Translations under genes and position numbers: made by a program
NCBI GenBank assembly: GCA_016432265.1
Contig: CP066681.1
Span: forward strand, 62,001 to 126,000
DNA from: Micavibrio aeruginosavorus
GTDB lineage: Bacteria > Pseudomonadota > Alphaproteobacteria > Micavibrionales > Micavibrionaceae
Length of the DNA stretch: 64,000 nucleotides
Reading direction: 5' to 3'
Shown here: positions 52,772 through 64,000 of the stretch, piece by piece
Layout of the letters: the number at the start of each line of letters is the position of its first letter
Position numbering within the stretch: the stretch's first letter is position 1
Notes under the pieces: generated by a model
Database searches by the model: none
Told to the model about the DNA's origin: nothing
What the model saw: the letters and a program-made list of their open reading frames with translations, nothing else

Positions 52772-54142
52772 ATGACGAAGTACCCCCCCCTGCTGAAAGA
52801 CGGCCTGCGCCAGGTGCGAGAAGGCGACTTGAAGCCCAGTGAATGGGCCGCACTGTGTTGCGACTTGATTGAGGCTTATGACAGCAATTTAAAAGCATGG
52901 TCTTATTTCGACCGTAATCAGGTCGAACGTGCGGCAGCGATTCTCGACCGGCAAAACTGGAAAGAAAGCAAACCGTTTCCTGCGCTGGCAGGGGCGCCCC
53001 TGGGCGTCAAGGACATCTTTAATACAACCGATCACCCCAACAGCATGGGCAGCGCAGCGCGCAAGGGGTATTGGCCCGGCAACGACGCCCGGGTGATTAC
53101 CACAGCGAAGCTGCTGGGCGCACAGATGCTCGGCAAAACCACCACTGCCGAATTCGCCGTGCATTACGCACCGGAGACCGTCAACCCGCGCAATCCGGGC
53201 CTGATCTGCGGCACATCGTCAACCGGCAGCGCCGTTGCGGTTGCCACCGGCATGGTGCCGGCAGCTCTCGGCACCCAGAGCGCGGGCTCAATCGCGCGCC
53301 CGGCCAGCTACAACGGCATTGTCGGGTTTAAGCCCTCTTTCGGCATGGTGCCACGCACGGGCGTTCTGAAAACTTGCGACACGCTGGACACTATCGGCTG
53401 GATGACGCGCGGCGTCGAAGACGCGCAAATCCTGTTTTCAGCCTTGCGCGTGCGCGGCGGCAACTATCCGGTAATTGAAAAGGGCATTTATAAAAATATG
53501 GCGCGCTTTGCAGACAGCAAATCCTTCAAGATTGGCCTTCTCAAAGCCCCCGGTTACGAGAACATCATGCCCGACTCGCTGACAAAAATTGAGCAACTCG
53601 CACTACAACTGAACAACCGACCCGATCTTGAAGTAATCGAAATCGATCTGCGTGGAAAGCTTGCAACCGCGCACCACACGCATGCGACAATATACGACAA
53701 GAGCCTCGCCTACTATTTTCAGCGCGAATTGCAAAATACCGAAGTGATCAGCCCGATATTCAAGGAGATTGTCGCGCGCGCAACTGAAATCAGCCCTGAT
53801 GATTTTTTTGCCGCGCTCGACGAACAGGAACGCCTGACTCGTGTCGTAGATGAAGAATTTCAGACCTGCGACTTCTTCCTTCTGCCCTCGACAGCCGGAG
53901 AAGCCCCGGCCGTGGGCACAGACGAACCCCGCGATTCCTCGCTCATCTGGACGCTGACGGGATGCCCGGTTCTTTCTCTGCCGCTCCTGCAGGGGGAAAA
54001 CGGCTACCCGGTCGGCGTAACGCTGGTCGGGCCAAAATACAGCGATATGAATTTGCTGGAGATGGCGAAGCGCGAAATCATGCCGGATGCCGTGGACATC
54101 GTTACGCCCGTGACTGGCGGCAAAGCCCGTCTTTCAGCCTAG
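52772..54142 (+). CDS. Amidase-signature family hydrolase
   Basis: A 456-residue amidase. The Ser-cisSer-Lys triad can be placed at K80 (GVKDIF), S153 (TGSAVAVATG) and S173 (AGSIARPAS). The region is the same one GatA uses. No GatB or GatC is adjacent. It follows the copy 1 amidotransferase by 11 bases, so both are likely co-transcribed. It could free ammonia for that enzyme, in place of HisH, or remove an amide from the glycan precursor; neither is proven. Its stop shares CTAG with the convergent gene. Confidence 0.85.
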   Translation: MTKYPPLLKDGLRQVREGDLKPSEWAALCCDLIEAYDSNLKAWSYFDRNQVERAAAILDRQNWKESKPFPALAGAPLGVKDIFNTTDHPNSMGSAARKGYWPGNDARVITTAKLLGAQMLGKTTTAEFAVHYAPETVNPRNPGLICGTSSTGSAVAVATGMVPAALGTQSAGSIARPASYNGIVGFKPSFGMVPRTGVLKTCDTLDTIGWMTRGVEDAQILFSALRVRGGNYPVIEKGIYKNMARFADSKSFKIGLLKAPGYENIMPDSLTKIEQLALQLNNRPDLEVIEIDLRGKLATAHHTHATIYDKSLAYYFQRELQNTEVISPIFKEIVARATEISPDDFFAALDEQERLTRVVDEEFQTCDFFLLPSTAGEAPAVGTDEPRDSSLIWTLTGCPVLSLPLLQGENGYPVGVTLVGPKYSDMNLLEMAKREIMPDAVDIVTPVTGGKARLSA

Positions 54143-55324: not shown

Positions 55325-56539
55325 TCAGCCCTCCCGCCTTTGCTTTATCTCTTCTACACGGCGTATTGTGTCGACCCGCCTGATCAATTCGTCCGTATCG
55401 ACCTCGTCCAGATCTTGATAATGGTGCCACACAGGCTCCTCGAGATACCACTCTCCCTTGTTATCCTTGCGCCACATCTTGCCACGGAAAGAATCAGCGA
55501 TCTCCCAGAACTGATTCGTATTTATACCGATCCACTCGCAGAAACCGTGAATATACCGCGGGTGACAACGACCATCGAGGCGCTTGACGAGGGCCGCCGC
55601 CTCCTTGCGGGTCATACGACCTGCACGGATATCGTAGGAAGCGTGCTCAGTCGTTTCACCAAACCCGAATTTCACGTATTTGAGCATAAAATTGACCATC
55701 GCACCGAAATCGCTGTCCAGAGAATGGTGGCGATAATGCAAGCCGATATTGTCGGGTACGTCACCGTGCGTCTCCAAGCCATGCTGGATCGAGAAAACAG
55801 CGTTGTTCCAACCGCTCCAGTCCAGAAAATAACCCATGAAAACGCCCCGCCCACCCCATGATTCAAGCTCGGCAACACTGGGAAAAGTATACTGTATAAG
55901 GTCGCGCGAAGTTACACCGTCGCCAAGCCATATGTCAGTGGCAGCCCCGGAAAGCGTGTGGCTGAACCGCACGCCGCTTGCATCCCATCCAGGGTTGTCT
56001 TGATTGACGTCTCCTGCCTCAAGCGCTGGATTTTCCCCGAACAGCACAAGCGGTATATCTTGCTCGATGGCCGTGCGGAAAGGCGCCGAGAACAGAGCCA
56101 GCTCCGAGAATTTGGCAATGTTGCCGTACTCGATGAAAGATTTTCTTGCAAGTTTTTGCGCTACTAGCGGATTGGGCTGGATACTGATGAGCGTAAAGCC
56201 GCACTTCACCATGTTCTCGGCATTATGGCGGCCCAGTTCAGTCGCATCGGACGATACATATTGCACCAGCAAGGGATTGAGCCCGAAGCGATCTCTCAAT
56301 TGATGTGCCTGCCACAGACTGTCCTTGCCGCCACTAACCCCCAGTATGCAATCGAATGAAGAGCGGCTAACCGACTTTGCCCAATCGGCAATATCCTGAA
56401 ACTGGCGCGCCCGTGAATCCCAGTCGATGCTTTGCTTTTTCTCATGCCAGCGGCATGCCATGCATACGCCTTCTCTGTCCATAACGATCCCGGGGCGTGA
56501 GGACGGCATCACGCATTTCCTGCAAAACGTAACCGTCAT
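55325..56539 (-). CDS. N-acetyl sugar amidotransferase-like (WbpG/PseA family), copy 3
   Basis: A 404-residue PP-loop ATPase. Zinc-knuckle cysteines are C6, C9, C26 and C29, and the SGGKDS loop is at 69-74. It starts within the stop of the HisF-like gene (ATGA), the arrangement expected if it receives ammonia from HisH through HisF. The three copies have diverged widely outside the motifs, so each may act on a different N-acetyl position. Confidence 0.88.
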   Translation of the reverse strand: MTVTFCRKCVMPSSRPGIVMDREGVCMACRWHEKKQSIDWDSRARQFQDIADWAKSVSRSSFDCILGVSGGKDSLWQAHQLRDRFGLNPLLVQYVSSDATELGRHNAENMVKCGFTLISIQPNPLVAQKLARKSFIEYGNIAKFSELALFSAPFRTAIEQDIPLVLFGENPALEAGDVNQDNPGWDASGVRFSHTLSGAATDIWLGDGVTSRDLIQYTFPSVAELESWGGRGVFMGYFLDWSGWNNAVFSIQHGLETHGDVPDNIGLHYRHHSLDSDFGAMVNFMLKYVKFGFGETTEHASYDIRAGRMTRKEAAALVKRLDGRCHPRYIHGFCEWIGINTNQFWEIADSFRGKMWRKDNKGEWYLEEPVWHHYQDLDEVDTDELIRRVDTIRRVEEIKQRREG

Positions 56540-57420
56540 TCCATCAACCCGCCTTTATCCAGCTCCCGCCACAGGACTGTCTTTTCCGCTCCCAGGCGCG
56601 ATCCGCGTTCCCGCTCACGGCGCGATTGCGCATAATCCATGCCGATTGTCGCCGGCCGCATCTTGCATGCCTGGGAAATTCCTTTCTTGGCCTCAGCATA
56701 ACTCAGCTCCGTATAGGCGAATATGTTTGCTGCTGCCACAGCGCCAATGCCGTGAGACAGCACCGGTATCATATCGTCCCATTTTCCGGCGCCGCCACAA
56801 ATAATCAACGGCAAATCAGTTGCACTCTTTACGAATTTGACAAGCTCCATATCATAGCCTGTGGCCATACCGTCACGGTCTATGTGATTGATAAAAAACT
56901 CGCCTGCGCCAAGGTCGGCGGCCTGATGCAGCCAATCAACCAACTTGAGGTTGGATTTAACCTTGCCGCCGCGCGCATAAATATCGTACCCTCCCGCCGG
57001 GTTGGTTCTGACATCTATGCCCACGATTACGGCTTGCGCTCCGAATGTGTGAGCCGCCGCCGTAATCAATCCTGGCTCCAGAAGGGCCCGCGTATTGATC
57101 ATAACACGGTCGGCCCCGGCCTTGATCAACTGGTGCATCTGATCGACAGTGCAAATGCCGCCCCCGGCAGTCAGGGGTATAAAACAGTTTCGGCTGGCCT
57201 TTTTGATTGTCTCCACATACCGCTCAAAAATCTCTTCCGGGCACCCGGACTGCCAATGCGGCGTGATGTCAAGGTAGATTAATTCATCCAGATCCCAACA
57301 TTTATAGCGATCAATTATATGATAGGGATCGCCGATGTCCTGGTGGACTTCGAAGCGGCGGCTTAGAACAAGCCGTCCGTTCTTGTGCATGAGTACAGGA
57401 ATGATACGGGGAACCGCCAT
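56536..57420 (-). CDS. HisF paralogue for sugar amidination
   Basis: A 294-residue TIM-barrel protein of the HisF family. The first strand reads RIIPVLMHKNGRLV, where the catalytic Asp11 of HisF is Met. Asp136 in GIDVR and the phosphate-site GGG and ICGGAG segments remain. It is longer than HisF (about 255) at the C-terminus. Loss of Asp11 means it cannot do the cyclase step of histidine synthesis. It probably carries ammonia from HisH to the PP-loop enzymes, as proposed for HisF2 of the WbpG system. Confidence 0.86.
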   Translation of the reverse strand: MAVPRIIPVLMHKNGRLVLSRRFEVHQDIGDPYHIIDRYKCWDLDELIYLDITPHWQSGCPEEIFERYVETIKKASRNCFIPLTAGGGICTVDQMHQLIKAGADRVMINTRALLEPGLITAAAHTFGAQAVIVGIDVRTNPAGGYDIYARGGKVKSNLKLVDWLHQAADLGAGEFFINHIDRDGMATGYDMELVKFVKSATDLPLIICGGAGKWDDMIPVLSHGIGAVAAANIFAYTELSYAEAKKGISQACKMRPATIGMDYAQSRRERERGSRLGAEKTVLWRELDKGGLME

Positions 57421-57428
57421 TTGCTAAA

Positions 57429-58508
57429 TCAGACTGCGAGCTTCTGCCCTATGGCTCCCTTTTTATGGATCACAACCCTGATTTCCCCTTGGGGCCCCAT
57501 AATATCTTTACCAAATCTCTCCTGTATGTATTTGCCTGGGTTGTCAAATATGGCTGGCCCTCCTTGGTGAACGAACTCAAGGGGGGCCGCTTTAGACAAG
57601 CGCTCAATAATTTCAGACTCCAGATAATATGTCCTTGCGGCGAATACATTATCCAAAAACGTATATATGAACCCCTCACGCAACCGGAAATCCTTCATCA
57701 CCCGCACAATTTCGGCAATTTCTATATCGCTTACCAGTTTTTTCATACGATCATAGATATCCCAGTAGAATCCGCCAGCCCCATAAAGGTAGAGCCACAG
57801 CACGCCATCAGGCCTTGTTATACGATAATGCTCATCAAGGCCGTCAAGACAACGAGGCGTATGATGCAAAACGCCGTTCGATGCTACAAAATCGAAGCTC
57901 CCGGCGGCATAAAGCGAAAGGTCGGTTACGTCCATCTCAACAACCTGAACGTTATTCAAACCATGCCTTTTCAACTGCCGCTTAAAGAAATCAAGGCTTT
58001 TGCCGCCGAAATCAGCCGCTACGACTTTTTCGGCCCCCAGTCTGGCCATAGCCAACGATAGCCGCCCGGTGCCACATCCGCCATCGAAGCAGGTTTTACC
58101 CTCAAACCAGTCTTCATCAAATCCACTGTCAATCAGGCGCTCCTCAACAAGCGATACGGAGTGGTCGTAGGTGTCGTCGCTGTATGTTGTCCATGCCTCC
58201 TCAAACAAGGGTTTTGTGCGATCATGTTCTCCATATTGATCGACATTATCATCGGAAAGTGCCACCTCATGAGAAAGCAGCCTTGCCGCCTCAAGCTGAG
58301 ACAGTTGGTGACTTAAACATAAGTCCAGGGGAGCCCAAGGATCTTGATCAGGATGGTCTATAATATGCTCAAGACACGATGTCAAAGCCACGAGTGTTTG
58401 AACTTTGTTATAGAAAAAGAGCCCCCCAGAAGGCATATCCCTGAACAGCCTCTCATACGAAGCCATCTTTTCTTCAACATGACCGGGTAATTTGTAATTC
58501 ATCGCCAT
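57429..58508 (-). CDS. SAM-dependent methyltransferase with N-terminal extension
   Basis: A 359-residue protein. Residues 142-149 (DGGCGTGR) and the following LAMARLGAEKVVAADF form the SAM site of a class I methyltransferase, with DFVASNGVLHHTP downstream. The first 130 residues are helical and not recognisable. It lies between hisH and hisF, eight bases before the latter. It probably methylates the glycan or its precursor. An alternative start is two codons in. Confidence 0.78.
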   Translation of the reverse strand: MAMNYKLPGHVEEKMASYERLFRDMPSGGLFFYNKVQTLVALTSCLEHIIDHPDQDPWAPLDLCLSHQLSQLEAARLLSHEVALSDDNVDQYGEHDRTKPLFEEAWTTYSDDTYDHSVSLVEERLIDSGFDEDWFEGKTCFDGGCGTGRLSLAMARLGAEKVVAADFGGKSLDFFKRQLKRHGLNNVQVVEMDVTDLSLYAAGSFDFVASNGVLHHTPRCLDGLDEHYRITRPDGVLWLYLYGAGGFYWDIYDRMKKLVSDIEIAEIVRVMKDFRLREGFIYTFLDNVFAARTYYLESEIIERLSKAAPLEFVHQGGPAIFDNPGKYIQERFGKDIMGPQGEIRVVIHKKGAIGQKLAV

Positions 58509-58581: not shown

Positions 58582-59205
58582 CTAGACCCGTAGAAATTTG
58601 TCCAAAAGAGACAGACCGGCAACATGACTCTTTTCAGGGTGGCATTGCAGTGCAAAAATACCGTCTTTTTCCATCGCAACGGGCCACCGTGACGGCGTAT
58701 CTGGCGCATACGCGCTTATACAGGACAAGTCATCAGGACAACAAACATAACTATGATTGAAATAAAAGAAAAGATCGTCACTGTTAAGTTCGGTGAAAAG
58801 ACTGCGTGGAGAAAATTCGACCCTGTTCCAGCCAATATGCGGGCAAGCTGCGCGTGGATCTACATCCTTTATATGGCGCACACTGCCAGGGAAAAGGCCC
58901 AGGCCCCTATGAAGACCAAATTCATAGCCTGTATCCATCAATACCTGCATGCCGACACATATACCCATGAACGGGCGGCCTTTATCTATATGTTGCTGTA
59001 TAGACTCGTTCAAATGACGATCGCGCAAACCTGTCGCAGCCTTTTCAAAGGCTCCCACTCCGGGCAGCACAAGATGGGTAGCCCCGGCCAGAGCGGGATC
59101 GTTTGCCGCGCCGACGATAGACGGCGCGTATCCAAGATAGTCAAATGCCTGCGCAACCGACCCGATGTTTCCGCAACCGTAGTCAAGCAAAACGACCTTT
59201 GTCAT
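58582..59205 (-). CDS. HisH paralogue, glutamine amidotransferase
   Basis: A 207-residue class I glutaminase. The catalytic Cys83 is in GICVGMQ, and His189 and Glu191 lie in QCHPEKS. It frees ammonia from glutamine. It overlaps the formyltransferase stop by ATGA. It pairs with the Asp11-less HisF, so sugar amidination is more likely than histidine synthesis. No other his genes are present. Confidence 0.9.
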   Translation of the reverse strand: MTKVVLLDYGCGNIGSVAQAFDYLGYAPSIVGAANDPALAGATHLVLPGVGAFEKAATGLRDRHLNESIQQHIDKGRPFMGICVGMQVLMDTGYEFGLHRGLGLFPGSVRHIKDVDPRAACPHIGWNRVEFSPRSLFTELNSDDLFFYFNHSYVCCPDDLSCISAYAPDTPSRWPVAMEKDGIFALQCHPEKSHVAGLSLLDKFLRV

Positions 59206-59933
59206 GATCTCGTTCCCACCCCCGCCTTGACCAAAGCATAGTGCTTGAGAACGGGATGAATGACATGATAAGTCACCCGGTTCCCGTGGCCTTGCTTCTG
59301 CGACGGACTCTTGCGGTCTTGCGCAATCGCCCTGACCATCGCCTCCGCCCTGATAACCGGATCTTGAATCCGGTCAATGTCCATGCCCTGCCAGGGGGCC
59401 GCCACAATCTTATAAATCACATCGCCGGTATCCAGCCCCTCATCCATCCAGAAAACGGTAGCGCCGATATCACCACCCTCAAGAATACTGTAATAGAAGG
59501 CTGTACTGCCTGAGTAACGGGGAGCATCGCCGCCATGCGCGTGAATGAAGCGCTTTCCCGAAGTCCTTAGCAAAGGCGGACGCAATATACAACCCGCCGG
59601 GCCCGAGAAAAGATATGTCAGATGCGGCGTATCCTTAATGAAATGTATGAATTCCTCCGCATTAACATCCGCGGTCGGCGCCTGCAGCGGATTAACCGTC
59701 AACGATTCCAGAGTTTCACGCAAAGGTTCGTTCGGGCAGAATTTGAATATGTCAGATCTGTCGCGATAGAGCGGCACAGCGCATGAAACCGCGCCCCGCA
59801 TAAACGGCTCATCGCCCGGCAGAATCACAGCGCCGCCTATGCGAACGCCAAAGTGACGTAACATTTGCAAAATCGCCCGCGAACGAAAGTTGGGTGCCAA
59901 CAATACAGATATCGAAGAAGGTTCAAATCCCAT
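59202..59933 (-). CDS. Formyltransferase-fold protein with altered active site
   Basis: A 243-residue protein of the formyl-transferase fold (10-formyl-THF dependent sugar or amino-acid N-formylation). The core is FIHAHGGDAPRYSGS and LDTGDV. In the usual motif (N-x-H-P) the first residue is Asn; here it is His, while the next His and the later Asp remain. I chose the ATG at 59933, six bases after AAGG, which overlaps the preceding gene by eleven bases; the longer frame from 59978 is less likely. It could formylate an amino sugar of the same glycan. Confidence 0.75.
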   Translation of the reverse strand: MGFEPSSISVLLAPNFRSRAILQMLRHFGVRIGGAVILPGDEPFMRGAVSCAVPLYRDRSDIFKFCPNEPLRETLESLTVNPLQAPTADVNAEEFIHFIKDTPHLTYLFSGPAGCILRPPLLRTSGKRFIHAHGGDAPRYSGSTAFYYSILEGGDIGATVFWMDEGLDTGDVIYKIVAAPWQGMDIDRIQDPVIRAEAMVRAIAQDRKSPSQKQGHGNRVTYHVIHPVLKHYALVKAGVGTRS

Positions 59934-60462
59934 ATACATCCTTCTCCAGTTTCTCGACCAAAGCTTCTTCACCATCAATCAGCCGAATCACTTTCTGGGC
60001 CGTTGCAAAATCCATAGTTTCCGCCGGTAAGGCGCAAAGCGCGTCCATGAGCTTGAGCAGCGTTGAGTGGTATTGGAAGCATTCTCCCTTAGCGGCTTTT
60101 TGCAAAAGAAGATCGGCGAAACACACATAAGCGGACACCGGCGCCACGACCGACTGCGGGTGGCGGAGGCCATCATCCCGATAACAGTCGTAAAACTTGC
60201 CAAAAACCTCAAACTTTTTAATCAGAATCCATAAGCCCCGCTCTGTCTGCATTAAATCAAAGACGGTTATCGCATCCGGCGGGCAATCCGGGCCCATGAC
60301 GCCCGCCTCATCAGAACTCTCCGCGACCTCTGTCAAACGCTTGCGGATTTCCTGACGGAAAGACCGCCATTCTCTGATAAAGCCATGATCGGCGCATTCC
60401 GCGAAATCGTAGCGTTGCGCAGCTTGCAGGGGCCGGGTGTGGATGTAAACATACCCTGTCAT
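59923..60462 (-). CDS. Unrecognised 179-residue protein of the glycan operon
   Basis: I do not recognise this protein. It has no signal peptide or membrane segment and is mostly helical by eye, with HTRPLQAAQRYDFAECADHG at the start and a C-terminal acidic LIDGEEALVEKLEKD. The start at 60462 overlaps the kinase stop by ATGA, and the longer ORF from 60537 would overlap it much further. Its fixed place between kinase and formyltransferase suggests a role in the same pathway. No catalytic motif is visible. Confidence 0.7.
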   Translation of the reverse strand: MTGYVYIHTRPLQAAQRYDFAECADHGFIREWRSFRQEIRKRLTEVAESSDEAGVMGPDCPPDAITVFDLMQTERGLWILIKKFEVFGKFYDCYRDDGLRHPQSVVAPVSAYVCFADLLLQKAAKGECFQYHSTLLKLMDALCALPAETMDFATAQKVIRLIDGEEALVEKLEKDVYGI

Positions 60463-60959
60463 AGCCGTTCCTTGATTTTGGCAGCTATAACATGAGGGTC
60501 TTCCAGAACAGCAGGAGCCGATATGATCATATCCCAAGTCTCCGTGCGCGGCATGGGGATATCAAAACCGACGACATCCTTGATTTCCCCGGCGGCTGCC
60601 CTGGCATAAAGCCGTTTGCTATCCCGGCGAACCAGCTCCTCCATGGGCGTGTCGATAAAAACCTCGAAATAACGGCTGAAAATATCACGGTTTTTGCGGC
60701 GCTCCTCGGGAAAGATGGACAGAATAGCCGCAACCACATGAATGCCCTGGCGATCAAGCATCAGGCAAAGCCGCGTGAAGCGTTCGGCATTCTTGCGACG
60801 CCCCTCCATGTCATGGCCCAGATGGTCGCCCCAGACATCGCGCAGCATATCACCATCAAGAAAAACGGTGTTGGGATGTTCAGTCTTGATTTTCTGGTAG
60901 AGGATTTGACCAATTGTTGTTTTACCCGCCCCCGACATGCCTATCAGCCATATAATCAT
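60459..60959 (-). CDS. Adenylylsulfate kinase-like protein
   Basis: A 166-residue P-loop kinase of the CysC family. The P-loop is GMSGAGKTT, followed by FLDGDMLRD and the CysC-type region EVFIDTPMEELVRRDSKRLY. CysC makes PAPS, the sulfate donor. The ATG at 60959 overlaps the next stop by ATGA, so I rejected the longer frame starting at 60998. It stands next to a sulfotransferase domain, which supports PAPS supply, although CysC-like kinases that phosphorylate other groups occur in glycan clusters. CysD/CysN are not in view. Confidence 0.82.
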   Translation of the reverse strand: MIIWLIGMSGAGKTTIGQILYQKIKTEHPNTVFLDGDMLRDVWGDHLGHDMEGRRKNAERFTRLCLMLDRQGIHVVAAILSIFPEERRKNRDIFSRYFEVFIDTPMEELVRRDSKRLYARAAAGEIKDVVGFDIPMPRTETWDMIISAPAVLEDPHVIAAKIKERL

Positions 60960-63900
60960 GATACCGCCCTCTCTTGACCGGAAGCCGACAAGGGCCATAG
61001 CTCCCCGTAGGCCTCAACCACCTTTGGCAAGGCTTGATCTGCGGAACCTTCCGTTGCCAACGCCTCCGCCCACAGACGAATTAAATCCGCGAACCGCAAA
61101 TGCCCCTTACCGTCTCGATAGGGGTCAACCCTCTCCCTCATGGATTGCAACGCCAGGGCGTCCCGTTCGGAGATTTTCCCTGATAGAATATAATCCACGC
61201 TCTTTGCCAGCAACGCGGCATCGTTCACCAGACAAAAGCCAGGCATAGCCTCTCTCATGACATGGGGCCATCCCGAACAGTCGAAGCAAACGACAGGAAG
61301 GTCAAACGCCTGCGCTTCCATTATCGATGACGCGTATATCGGCGTCCCGACAACTAAGTCCACTCTAGGGAAGAGATAATGCGGCATTCCCTTCCAGGGC
61401 GCAAGGATGACACGGCCAGACTCCTGAAAGGTTCGCAACGATTCGCTCTGATCGCTCCGCAAGTTGAGAGCTTTCTGCGGCTTCACGATAAACAAATCGG
61501 CGGGGCTTTTGGCGATCAGAGCCAGGACAGCATCATAAAAATCATGCACAGCCCTGGTGGACAAGAATTTCAGATGCGTGCTGGCAGAATCCATTACCAG
61601 AATTTTACGCCCCCCTTTGTGCGCCTCGATTGCCTCAAGGACGATTCGGGCTTCTTCCGAGTAATGCCAGGACATGTATGTCCTCATGTTTCCTGCCAGA
61701 AAAATCTTCCGCGGCAAGACACGATAAGGAACGGATCGAGCCACATCTTCAACCATCGACCGGGTTAAATCCCCCCAGCATATATATTGATGACGCCCCA
61801 AAGGCCGGGAGTCCATGAACGCATGATAACCGGTGGCGCTGAATTCAAAGGAAAGATCAATCCCACCAAGAGATTCAAGCGCATGCATCTTGGGCAAGGC
61901 ATCCAGGTTTGTATCCGCAACATTGACAAAACACCCGACATCATGCCTCTGGAAGAATTGCCGCCAACGACAATAGAATACGGTGTAGAACGCGCAAGCG
62001 GCTGCGGACTTAAGCCGTGCACGGATCAGCGAGCGCAATATATAACGGCAAGCAGAGAACAGCGCGGCCCTTGTCTGCGACTCGCCCCAACTTGCTTTAA
62101 AGCTTCCAGCGTAAAGCAATGTTACGCCTTGCGAGTCGCAAAAACCCTTGGTGGCTTGATCGAGTTCCTCAAACCCCTCTACCAGGTAGATAATATTCTG
62201 CGGATCTACTTTAGAATCCTGCAGCCAGTCGAGATCGCCGGGATAAACCTTGCCCTGCGGGCCGTTAACATACTGCACACAAATATTACGGTGGGCACCC
62301 TTCGTTATAAGACTTACGGGAACAAGCAGGGATTTTGCCAAATACGCAAAAAACCTTACCAAGTGCTTGATGTCATGCCGCCACAGCCTGAGAGGCATCG
62401 TAAACCGCAACCGTACATCGGCGGGGCGCACCAGTCTTGAGAACACGTCAGATTGCGGTGTTCTCGCCAGATAAAGAGACCTAAAGCGGGAGCCTGATTT
62501 CAATACGTAATGCGCCATCAGCAATTGTGCGGCAACCAGCGATCCAGCCTGATCAACGATATAACGGGAAAAATAACTCATCCAGTCGTCTTCACGGATA
62601 ATGCAGCCGGGCACGGTTGATGGGTAATCATCTTGGGCGCCAATATAATGCTGGTACAAAGAGCGCAGGATATTGTTCCAGTCAGTAAAAATGTGATGTT
62701 CCTGCCCGTTACGGTAATCTCCCACATCGTCCGGGCATTGCCGGATATCAACCCAGCGCGATGCCGCCTTGTGCCACGGGGAATCGGCTCTTGTCTGCGC
62801 AAGCGTGATGGAAACACGATAACCAAGCACGCGGTGAAACAAGGCAGAAAAAAGCAGTTGCGGCGACATGCCGTCGGCAGCGAAAGAAACCTCTCTGGCA
62901 GGAAATTGCGGAAGACGCGCAGGCTCGGCAAACCCGCCCACAAATTCAGGCGGCACGAAAACGTCATCCAAACCCCGCGAGAAAAAACGACGACGTTCGT
63001 AAACCGCCATTTTAATGCGGGCCAAGGCATAAAGCGGCCAGACCTTTATGAAATACAGGCTGCGATCACGGCGTTCCACGTCAGTTTCGGCCTTTTTTAC
63101 CCAGCGCCATGAGGGAATCTCTCCCGACCAAGGGCGGCAAATATTCAGAAATTTATTCCAGCCCTTCTTTTCCACATCCGGAATATGAAAGTCATAGCCG
63201 CAATAGGCGATCTCATAAGCGAAATAATTTTCGAGCAGAGCCTGTTCGTGCCGTGGAAGACGCTCCTTCCAACGCTCGACTACATGGCGGCTAGGCCCCA
63301 CAGCGACGGCTTGCGCCCCATTCTCAAGCGGGCCGTTCGTCACCTTTTGATAACGGTTGCTATACGCGCCCGTGCCGGCCCAGGGCCGCCCCATCATACG
63401 CGCCTTGTAATCGTTGCCCGCTTCGATCCATTCAGGATCCGGATCGACGTGCAGCGCACTACAAACCGCCTTCATAGTCGGCACAAAAGCCGTATTGAAA
63501 TCCTCGTTCCGTAGAAAAAGCCAGTTTTCCGGGTGCTCCCGCCATTTGCGCAACAAATCTCTATAGGCCGCCACCTGATAAAGCAGGCACAAGTGAGCCG
63601 GGCCTTCATCCAAAGTTACCCGATCTCGGCACAAGCCTCCCAAGACCCGCATAAACGTCCCCTTATGCAGATCATAATTATTGCCAAGCTCATTCACCAT
63701 CTGGTGCTTGGTCGAAGCGTATTGCGCGCGCGGATCGCGCAATAGCGCAAGCGTCACCATATAAGGGAAGTCGGCGCGCGCCCAGTCAATCAGGCGGCCC
63801 GAGAATCCTTGCAGCATATCCTCGCCGCTCTCAGAAACAGCGTCATTTATCATGATATATAAGGCACGCGACAGGTCAAAGCCGCGGCACAACGCATAAG

Positions 63901-64000
63901 CTGCATAAGCATGCAGAATCAGATCGCGCCGGGATATGTTGCCCTCCCCGTCAAGCCTGTCGTCGATGAGCGCGCGATAACGCGCACGATCAAACGGGGC
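60956..64000 (-). CDS. Sulfotransferase-glycosyltransferase fusion (cut by right edge)
   Basis: The frame is open to the last base, so the N-terminus lies outside the window. The right part holds a sulfotransferase domain: LLRDPRAQYAS is the 3'-phosphate-binding motif for PAPS, near 63,735. The left part (61,000-61,900) looks like a GT-B or CDP-glycerol-type glycosyltransferase domain, with VGTPIYASSIMEAQAFDLP, HVMREAMPG and a long middle linker. I have no precise family for the middle. With the CysC-like kinase next door, it may sulfate a glycan it also helps to build. The TTG at 63892 is not the real start. Confidence 0.72.
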   Translation of the reverse strand, partial: APFDRARYRALIDDRLDGEGNISRRDLILHAYAAYALCRGFDLSRALYIMINDAVSESGEDMLQGFSGRLIDWARADFPYMVTLALLRDPRAQYASTKHQMVNELGNNYDLHKGTFMRVLGGLCRDRVTLDEGPAHLCLLYQVAAYRDLLRKWREHPENWLFLRNEDFNTAFVPTMKAVCSALHVDPDPEWIEAGNDYKARMMGRPWAGTGAYSNRYQKVTNGPLENGAQAVAVGPSRHVVERWKERLPRHEQALLENYFAYEIAYCGYDFHIPDVEKKGWNKFLNICRPWSGEIPSWRWVKKAETDVERRDRSLYFIKVWPLYALARIKMAVYERRRFFSRGLDDVFVPPEFVGGFAEPARLPQFPAREVSFAADGMSPQLLFSALFHRVLGYRVSITLAQTRADSPWHKAASRWVDIRQCPDDVGDYRNGQEHHIFTDWNNILRSLYQHYIGAQDDYPSTVPGCIIREDDWMSYFSRYIVDQAGSLVAAQLLMAHYVLKSGSRFRSLYLARTPQSDVFSRLVRPADVRLRFTMPLRLWRHDIKHLVRFFAYLAKSLLVPVSLITKGAHRNICVQYVNGPQGKVYPGDLDWLQDSKVDPQNIIYLVEGFEELDQATKGFCDSQGVTLLYAGSFKASWGESQTRAALFSACRYILRSLIRARLKSAAACAFYTVFYCRWRQFFQRHDVGCFVNVADTNLDALPKMHALESLGGIDLSFEFSATGYHAFMDSRPLGRHQYICWGDLTRSMVEDVARSVPYRVLPRKIFLAGNMRTYMSWHYSEEARIVLEAIEAHKGGRKILVMDSASTHLKFLSTRAVHDFYDAVLALIAKSPADLFIVKPQKALNLRSDQSESLRTFQESGRVILAPWKGMPHYLFPRVDLVVGTPIYASSIMEAQAFDLPVVCFDCSGWPHVMREAMPGFCLVNDAALLAKSVDYILSGKISERDALALQSMRERVDPYRDGKGHLRFADLIRLWAEALATEGSADQALPKVVEAYGELWPLSASGQERAVS

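Follow-up and report, generated by a model that had tools for sequence, protein, structure and literature searches.

A probable phosphoramidate-decoration operon in Micavibrio aeruginosavorus that encodes a sulfotransferase-like domain fused to a glycosyltransferase-like domain

In Campylobacter jejuni, the enzymes Cj1415-1418 are reported to convert glutamine, ATP and CTP to CDP-phosphoramidate 3'-phosphate, the likely donor of methyl phosphoramidate (MeOPN), and the transferases Cj1421 and Cj1422 are described as assigned through gene deletions (PMC11800397). Cj1418 is presented as a glutamine kinase, with PEP synthase or PPDK as the earlier annotation (PMC10971088), whereas Cj1417c, Cj1416c and Cj1415c are listed, respectively, as gamma-glutamyl-CDP-amidate hydrolase, CTP:phosphoglutamine cytidylyltransferase and cytidine diphosphoramidate kinase, and Cj1419c and Cj1420c as methyltransferases (PMC11202532). 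The O-methyl modification has been described as confined to Campylobacter (PMC6429109) and the glutamine kinase as specific to C. jejuni (PMC9561416); unmethylated phosphoramidate is reported in the lipopolysaccharide of Xanthomonas and Shewanella (PMC3907429). No title in the best-ranked open-access literature concerns a sulfotransferase-like phosphoramidate transferase or the pathway in Alphaproteobacteria. The locus considered here lies across the right edge of a stretch of 64,000 nucleotides from the alphaproteobacterium Micavibrio aeruginosavorus (G000:C1:62001-126000, hereafter the window), whose genome is a single 2.46 Mb contig. It includes a CysC-like kinase and a gene in which a sulfotransferase-family N-terminal half is fused to a glycosyltransferase-like C-terminal half. 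The locus is likely to be an operon for the decoration of a surface glycan with phosphoramidate, with the sulfotransferase-like half as the enzyme that transfers the phosphoramidate. Its central features are the following, APS being adenosine 5'-phosphosulfate:

60459..60959, minus strand: CysC-like kinase, proposed CDP-phosphoramidate 3'-kinase (PF01583 APS_kinase, E = 2.2e-30)
60956..64000, plus 306 bp past the window edge to the ATG, minus strand: fusion gene, an open frame of ~1115 amino acids (aa) in total
62948..64000, with the first ~100 residues outside the window, minus strand: sulfotransferase-family half, proposed phosphoramidate transferase (from profile-profile comparison)
63713..63739, minus strand: 3'-phosphate-binding motif RDPRAQYAS, Arg to Ser spacing 8 (from the sequence)
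60959..62953, minus strand: glycosyltransferase-like half (Pfam matches under cut-off)

From a methyltransferase beyond the window edge to window position 54139, all predicted genes lie on the minus strand, a uniformity that makes them look like one operon. In the order of transcription, the methyltransferase, a glutamine-kinase-like protein, a C26 amidotransferase and a nucleoside triphosphate (NTP) transferase, all four outside the window, are followed by the fusion and the kinase. The glutamine-kinase-like protein (797 aa) is PEP-synthase-like and reaches 907 bits (cut-off 501) with the model PRK05849, of which Cj1418 is presumably a member. The best NCBIfam match of the amidotransferase is the gamma-glutamyl-CDP-amidate hydrolase (E = 1.7e-35), and the NTP transferase is MobA-like (PF12804, 9.6e-21; a family-level match). 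The order glutamine kinase, amidotransferase, nucleotidyltransferase and kinase is that of Cj1418-1417-1416-1415, and the locus shares with the MeOPN pathway enzymes of the same families for the four donor steps, an adjoining methyltransferase and the surface-glycan setting. It differs from that pathway in that the fusion is inserted between the nucleotidyltransferase and the kinase, the amidotransferase stays under the equivalog cut-off and the host is not Campylobacter. The operon very likely makes a phosphoramidate donor.

By analogy with C. jejuni, the glutamine-kinase-like protein would N-phosphorylate glutamine, the nucleotidyltransferase would cytidylylate the phosphoglutamine, and hydrolysis by the C26 amidotransferase would yield CDP-phosphoramidate. 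The CysC-like kinase would then 3'-phosphorylate this compound to a look-alike of 3'-phosphoadenosine 5'-phosphosulfate (PAPS), from which the sulfotransferase-family half would move the phosphoramidate onto a sugar of the glycan made by the glycosyltransferase-like half; the phosphoramidate may also be O-methylated by the methyltransferase of the operon. These catalytic steps are proposed from homology and from the C. jejuni gene order, and the observations behind them are those of sequence, gene order and co-occurrence.

In a phylum sample, 15 of 398 genomes carry the glutamine-kinase-like family, as do 18 of 385 in a class sample (the host's own genome is counted in both); it also turned up on 14 plasmid records, eight of which were opened, and on one phage-labelled record, which was opened too. 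The 43 loci compared below are the window, that of a sister genome (L004; L and G numbers denote loci and genomes), nine plasmid or phage records and 32 genome stretches, L100 having been dropped for want of such a gene; the stretches extend to ~20 kb at most and some contigs are shorter, so that absences are soft. In each of the 43 loci, the glutamine-kinase-like protein retains the SHM motif, which we take to be the phospho-histidine site of PEP-utilising enzymes. An amidotransferase is present in 38 of these loci, a nucleotidyltransferase in 37, both in 37, and a CysC-like kinase of non-canonical type in 26.

The window kinase shares with the APS kinase CysC the fold family, the P-loop and the DGD..R motif, and scores 160.6 bits with the NCBIfam model PRK05541 (cut-off 127). 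In a tree, however, the 26 glutamine-kinase-linked kinases, that of the window among them, stand apart from 30 canonical APS kinases, the host's own included, with a support of 100/100, and the pocket residues are altered. Phe50, Pro83, Phe99 and Phe131, invariant in the 30 canonical enzymes, are all missing from the window kinase, where position 83 is Ile. Across the 26 linked kinases, position 99 is Tyr without exception (26/26), position 131 is Val in 17 and Phe in one, position 83 is Pro in one, and position 50 is His, Tyr or Phe (12, 9 and 5, respectively). Position 59, which was chosen post hoc, is Ile or Val in 41/41 APS-type kinases, a count that took in 11 of the 12 members of a third clade described below, and in 0/26 linked kinases.

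The linked-type kinase also tracks the glutamine kinase across the class sample. At a threshold of E 1e-42 or better, with nine candidates scored per genome, it occurs in 14 of the 18 genomes that have a glutamine kinase compared with 1 of the 367 that lack one; the former fraction is partly circular because some rows of the search profile A6 (six from other genomes and that of the window) come from positive genomes, but the latter is not. The sole negative genome with such a kinase, G835, belongs to the same genus as one of the positive genomes. Among the four other positives, the kinases of G244 (L105) and G315 (L160) score under the threshold, that of L160 falling outside the linked kinases in the tree, G306 has third-clade and canonical kinases only, and G834 has none. 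A kinase match was obtained in 53 genomes, 30 loci of which were fetched and classified; the remaining 23 matches, left unclassified, score at most 154 bits in frames of at least 617 aa and resemble fused canonical enzymes. In 11 sampled genomes, no such kinase lies near the glutamine kinase: G562, G460, G444, G498 and G405 have one elsewhere, G315 has a doubtful one elsewhere and G306 a third-clade one, G414, G720 and G740 have the canonical kinase only, and G834 has none. The distant linked kinase adjoins an amidotransferase in G444 and G498 and, in G444, a nucleotidyltransferase as well.

The sulfotransferase-family half is too divergent for Pfam: neither Pfam nor NCBIfam detects a sulfotransferase in the fusion, and Pfam finds no match in the corresponding protein of L004. 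Compared profile to profile, this half reaches 98.2% with a set of eight sulfotransferase-family proteins drawn from other glutamine-kinase loci, the alignment spanning 314 columns; none of six decoys (one reversed, five column-shuffled) exceeds 0.3%, and none of five unrelated families exceeds 3.5%. All eight comparison proteins match PF13469, two of them slightly under its cut-off, and this family is also matched by proteins of L085 and L086. The third L075 protein is likewise a PF13469 match. The comparison indicates that the N-terminal half is homologous to PF13469-type sulfotransferases. In addition to the RDPRAQYAS motif in the window, a 5'-type loop, HGGRAGSNFFQ, lies ~211-243 bp past the window edge; both nucleotide-binding motifs are kept in this half in two genomes (window and L004), and the Arg...Ser spacing of 8 is common to the window protein, L094 and L080. 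The Arg and Ser presumably correspond to the pair with which known sulfotransferases bind the PAPS 3'-phosphate, and they fit a 3'-phosphorylated CDP donor equally well. A PAPS-binding motif had been claimed for this protein from the window alone; the 3'-phosphate part of the claim stands, but the gene context appears to argue against the use of PAPS, and the donor proposed here, the main difference from the PF13469 family, is 3'-phospho-CDP-phosphoramidate. That this half is a phosphoramidate transferase is reasonably probable. It has no relatives at E 1e-4 in 239 other class genomes and no match in a plasmid search. A sequence search of the PDB with the whole fusion and with this half returned nothing meaningful, and viral contigs searched for the glutamine kinase and both fusion halves gave no match.

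Several observations speak against the interpretation as phosphoramidate decoration. The amidotransferase scores 122.9 bits, compared with an equivalog cut-off of 250 bits that 0/289 class genomes reach, and the likeness to C. jejuni rests on families and gene order, not on Campylobacter sequences. The third clade, composed of 12 CysC-like kinases (L196-L207), 11 of them in genomes without a glutamine kinase, has Tyr99 and mostly Val131, and differs from the canonical enzymes at each of the four positions, with Ala or Ser at position 83. With one to four neighbours scanned per locus, an ATP sulfurylase adjoins the third-clade kinase in 4 of the 12 loci (L197, L201, L206 and L207); when pyruvate-kinase-like neighbours are counted as well, 7 of the 12 have one or the other. 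These kinases can be presumed to be genuine APS kinases. Because the window's kinase subclade groups with this clade (92/84), the linked kinases do not form a single clade, and the sequence of the kinase alone leaves the substrate unsettled. Sulfotransferase-family genes are present in only 10 of the 43 loci, four of which have no such kinase in the stretch. G414 (L079) carries two sulfotransferase-family genes and, as far as found, only a canonical CysC, and CysD/CysN-type genes adjoin the glutamine kinase in the Vibrio alfacsensis locus. The AlphaFold models of the two halves, each built on an alignment of 2 rows, have a predicted local distance difference test score (pLDDT) of 36.7 for the sulfotransferase half and 37.6 for the glycosyltransferase half. 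Finally, judging from its genes, the cell can make PAPS.

The pocket residue signature (Phe131 to Val, Phe99 to Tyr) was considered as proof of the substrate and dropped because the third clade, beside ATP sulfurylase in some of its loci, largely has the same changes. Since the signature is not decisive, the argument for CDP-phosphoramidate comes chiefly from gene order and co-occurrence.

The sequence-only reading held that the kinase makes PAPS and that the fusion couples the assembly of a glycan with its sulfation. Recast for the whole locus, with a true APS kinase supplying PAPS, the fusion sulfating the glycan and the phosphoramidate genes serving another transferase, this explanation draws on the membership of the kinase in the APS_kinase family, on the sister relationship of its subclade to the clade found beside ATP sulfurylase, on the sulfotransferase-family domain of the fusion, and on a supply of APS from elsewhere in the genome:

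G000:C1:755359-757928: CysD + CysNC (NCBIfam matches)

CysD scores 308 bits with PRK05253 (cut-off 195), and the adjoining fused CysN-CysC scores 345 bits with TIGR02034 (cut-off 336) and 242 bits with apsK (cut-off 139). A lack of APS, once considered as an argument against sulfation, was rejected given the presence of these genes. CysD is the only protein with a PF01507 match in the genome, which apparently has no CysH-type reductase of this family, so that PAPS may escape CysH-type reduction. A precedent is the C. jejuni HS:19 cluster of cysD, cysN, cysC and a putative sulphotransferase, for which sulfation of surface molecules is proposed (PMC8743553): a kinase with a sulfotransferase can mean sulfate when cysDN are in the cluster, but they are absent from that of the window. 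With CysNC encoded elsewhere, a dedicated APS kinase in the operon would be redundant; a PF01747 ATP sulfurylase was not found in the genome, nor seen adjoining the window kinase; the kinase type follows the glutamine kinase; and its position 59 is unlike that of all 41 APS-type kinases compared. Sulfation by this route is unlikely. The kinase was probably misjudged as a source of PAPS, given upstream genes homologous to the Campylobacter enzymes for 3'-phospho-CDP-phosphoramidate, a kinase type tied to the glutamine-kinase-like gene and a host with canonical CysD and CysNC. A coupling of assembly with decoration remains likely, with sulfate probably the wrong decoration.

Another alternative accepts that the donor is made here and assigns its transfer to another gene, for example, the formyltransferase-like one or orf179, the sulfotransferase-like half having lost or changed its function. 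The genes that follow the kinase are these:

59923..60462, minus strand: orf179, 179 aa, no Pfam or NCBIfam family
59202..59978, minus strand: formyltransferase-like gene (PF00551, 2.1e-8), a recurrent partner in 8/43 loci
58582..59205, minus strand: HisH-like glutamine amidotransferase (GATase, 1e-13)
57429..58508, minus strand: S-adenosylmethionine (SAM) methyltransferase (PF08241, 2.2e-18)
56536..57420, minus strand: HisF-like protein (PF00977, 1e-49)
55325..56539, minus strand: WbuX-type N-acetyl sugar amidotransferase, indicating a surface-glycan context (TIGR03573, 8.3e-94)

The small gene orf179, detected in 5 of the 43 loci, comes after the kinase in several of them and, in L004, is joined with the formyltransferase-like protein into one polypeptide. 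The trio of CysC-like kinase, orf179 and formyltransferase-like gene is seen in the window (59202-60962), L004 (9050-10378), L098, L104, L105 and L212. In the formyltransferase-like protein, H-x-H stands in place of N-x-H, the motif that we would expect, in all 7 members compared. The recurrence of the trio, including in L098, L104 and L105, where no sulfotransferase was detected, and the restriction of sulfotransferase-family genes to 10 of the 43 loci favour a different transferase; outside these 10, L089 has a PF00685 protein beside the kinase (by Pfam), and the record of L031 has two genes annotated as sulfotransferase-domain. Conversely, both nucleotide motifs are retained in the sulfotransferase half, whose 53% identity to the sister protein, compared with 31% for the glycosyltransferase half, suggests selection, and a 3'-phosphonucleotide donor is generally expected to suit the sulfotransferase fold better than the formyltransferase fold. 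A different transferase is quite unlikely, and transfer by the sulfotransferase-like half remains the preferred assignment.

Two loci suggest how a donor with no 3'-phosphate might be used. In L033 (Vibrio alfacsensis), the core trio of glutamine kinase, amidotransferase and nucleotidyltransferase is followed by a CDP-glycerol glycerophosphotransferase-type gene, and in L038 (Agrobacterium vitis), a CDP-alcohol phosphatidyltransferase lies one gene beyond the core trio, with no kinase nearby in either case. Both of these transferase families use CDP donors without a 3'-phosphate, and direct use of CDP-phosphoramidate is possible in these loci. Kinase-free loci with CDP-donor transferases fit a pairing of the kinase with transferases that require the 3'-phosphate; L082, where a PF04464 protein occurs together with the kinase, counts against such a pairing, as do L079 and the Vibrio locus.

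The survey yielded further variants. One methyltransferase type, different from that of the window, is present in 19 of the 43 loci, and this SAM methyltransferase type is also seen in L210 and L213 beside a kinase distant from any glutamine kinase; it is a candidate phosphoramidate O-methyltransferase. On the plasmids of L034 (Microvirga) and L035 (Cupriavidus), the other core genes were undetected near the glutamine-kinase-like gene, which on the Cupriavidus plasmid lies ~7 kb from nifK. The L039 record (MT837632.1), submitted under a phage name, encodes a glutamine-kinase-like protein fused to an amidotransferase, with oxidoreductase and phosphoribosyl genes adjoining; this is perhaps bacterial DNA under a phage label.

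Extended to the right, the sequence completes the fusion that the window edge had cut, 306 bp further on and at ~1115 aa, with its two-half structure and with the CysC-family kinase beside it, as the sequence-only reading had it. The start ATG of the fusion overlaps the stop of the upstream nucleotidyltransferase gene, an ATGA at 60956-60959 is common to the fusion stop and the kinase start, and another at 60459-60462 to the kinase stop and the start of orf179. The overlaps predicted between the fusion and the kinase are thus real, and the translational coupling read from them is plausible for the fusion, the kinase and the next gene, given an ATGA at both junctions. The second half had been called glycosyltransferase-like and is likely a glycosyltransferase: within residues 468-596, the models Glyco_trans_1_4 (E = 2.1e-5) and, more weakly, Glycos_transf_1 (E = 8e-5) match under the Pfam cut-off, so that the similarity to glycosyltransferase group 1 (PF00534/PF13692) is confined to these residues; the remainder of the half has no family match, and its 665-aa counterpart in L004 has no Pfam match. 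A Foldseek search of the PDB with the low-confidence model of this half gave template modelling (TM) scores below 0.3, with unrelated proteins, e.g. receptors, among the matches; the best are mostly what we take to be GT-B-type folds. On plasmids, this half has one weak match, in Mesorhizobium.

The sister locus L004 (MAG.289, of the same family as the host) has the core genes in identical order and is the only close relative found. There, two adjacent genes 7 bp apart encode the halves as separate proteins (471 and 665 aa), and the identity to the window protein is 52-53% for the sulfotransferase half and 31% for the glycosyltransferase half. Among 143 genomes, the host's own included, full-length matches to the fusion occur in the own genome and G038 only; three further genomes have weak matches of 70-145 residues in the C-terminal half only. 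As far as two genomes show, the fusion appears to be lineage-specific. That it is an artefact of assembly or sequencing that erased a stop codon between adjacent genes would account for the two genes 7 bp apart in the sister genome and for a junction visible in one assembly only; this is very improbable, given the single-contig genome and a frame that stays open through both halves with no internal stop. Fusion of the halves in one lineage points to cooperation between the two activities. That a sulfotransferase-family enzyme transferring phosphoramidate is joined here to the glycosyltransferase responsible for assembling its acceptor is somewhat favoured.

If the interpretation as phosphoramidate decoration is true, it would account for a CysC-like 3'-phosphorylation at the end of the pathway, and this enzymatic route, known from Campylobacter, would extend to many Pseudomonadota. 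It would name a protein family and a donor logic, that of a PAPS look-alike and a sulfotransferase-like enzyme, for the transfer step, and the fusion protein would be a place to test that step. Some annotations of 'adenylyl-sulfate kinase plus sulfotransferase' in glycan loci may then be phosphoramidate systems.

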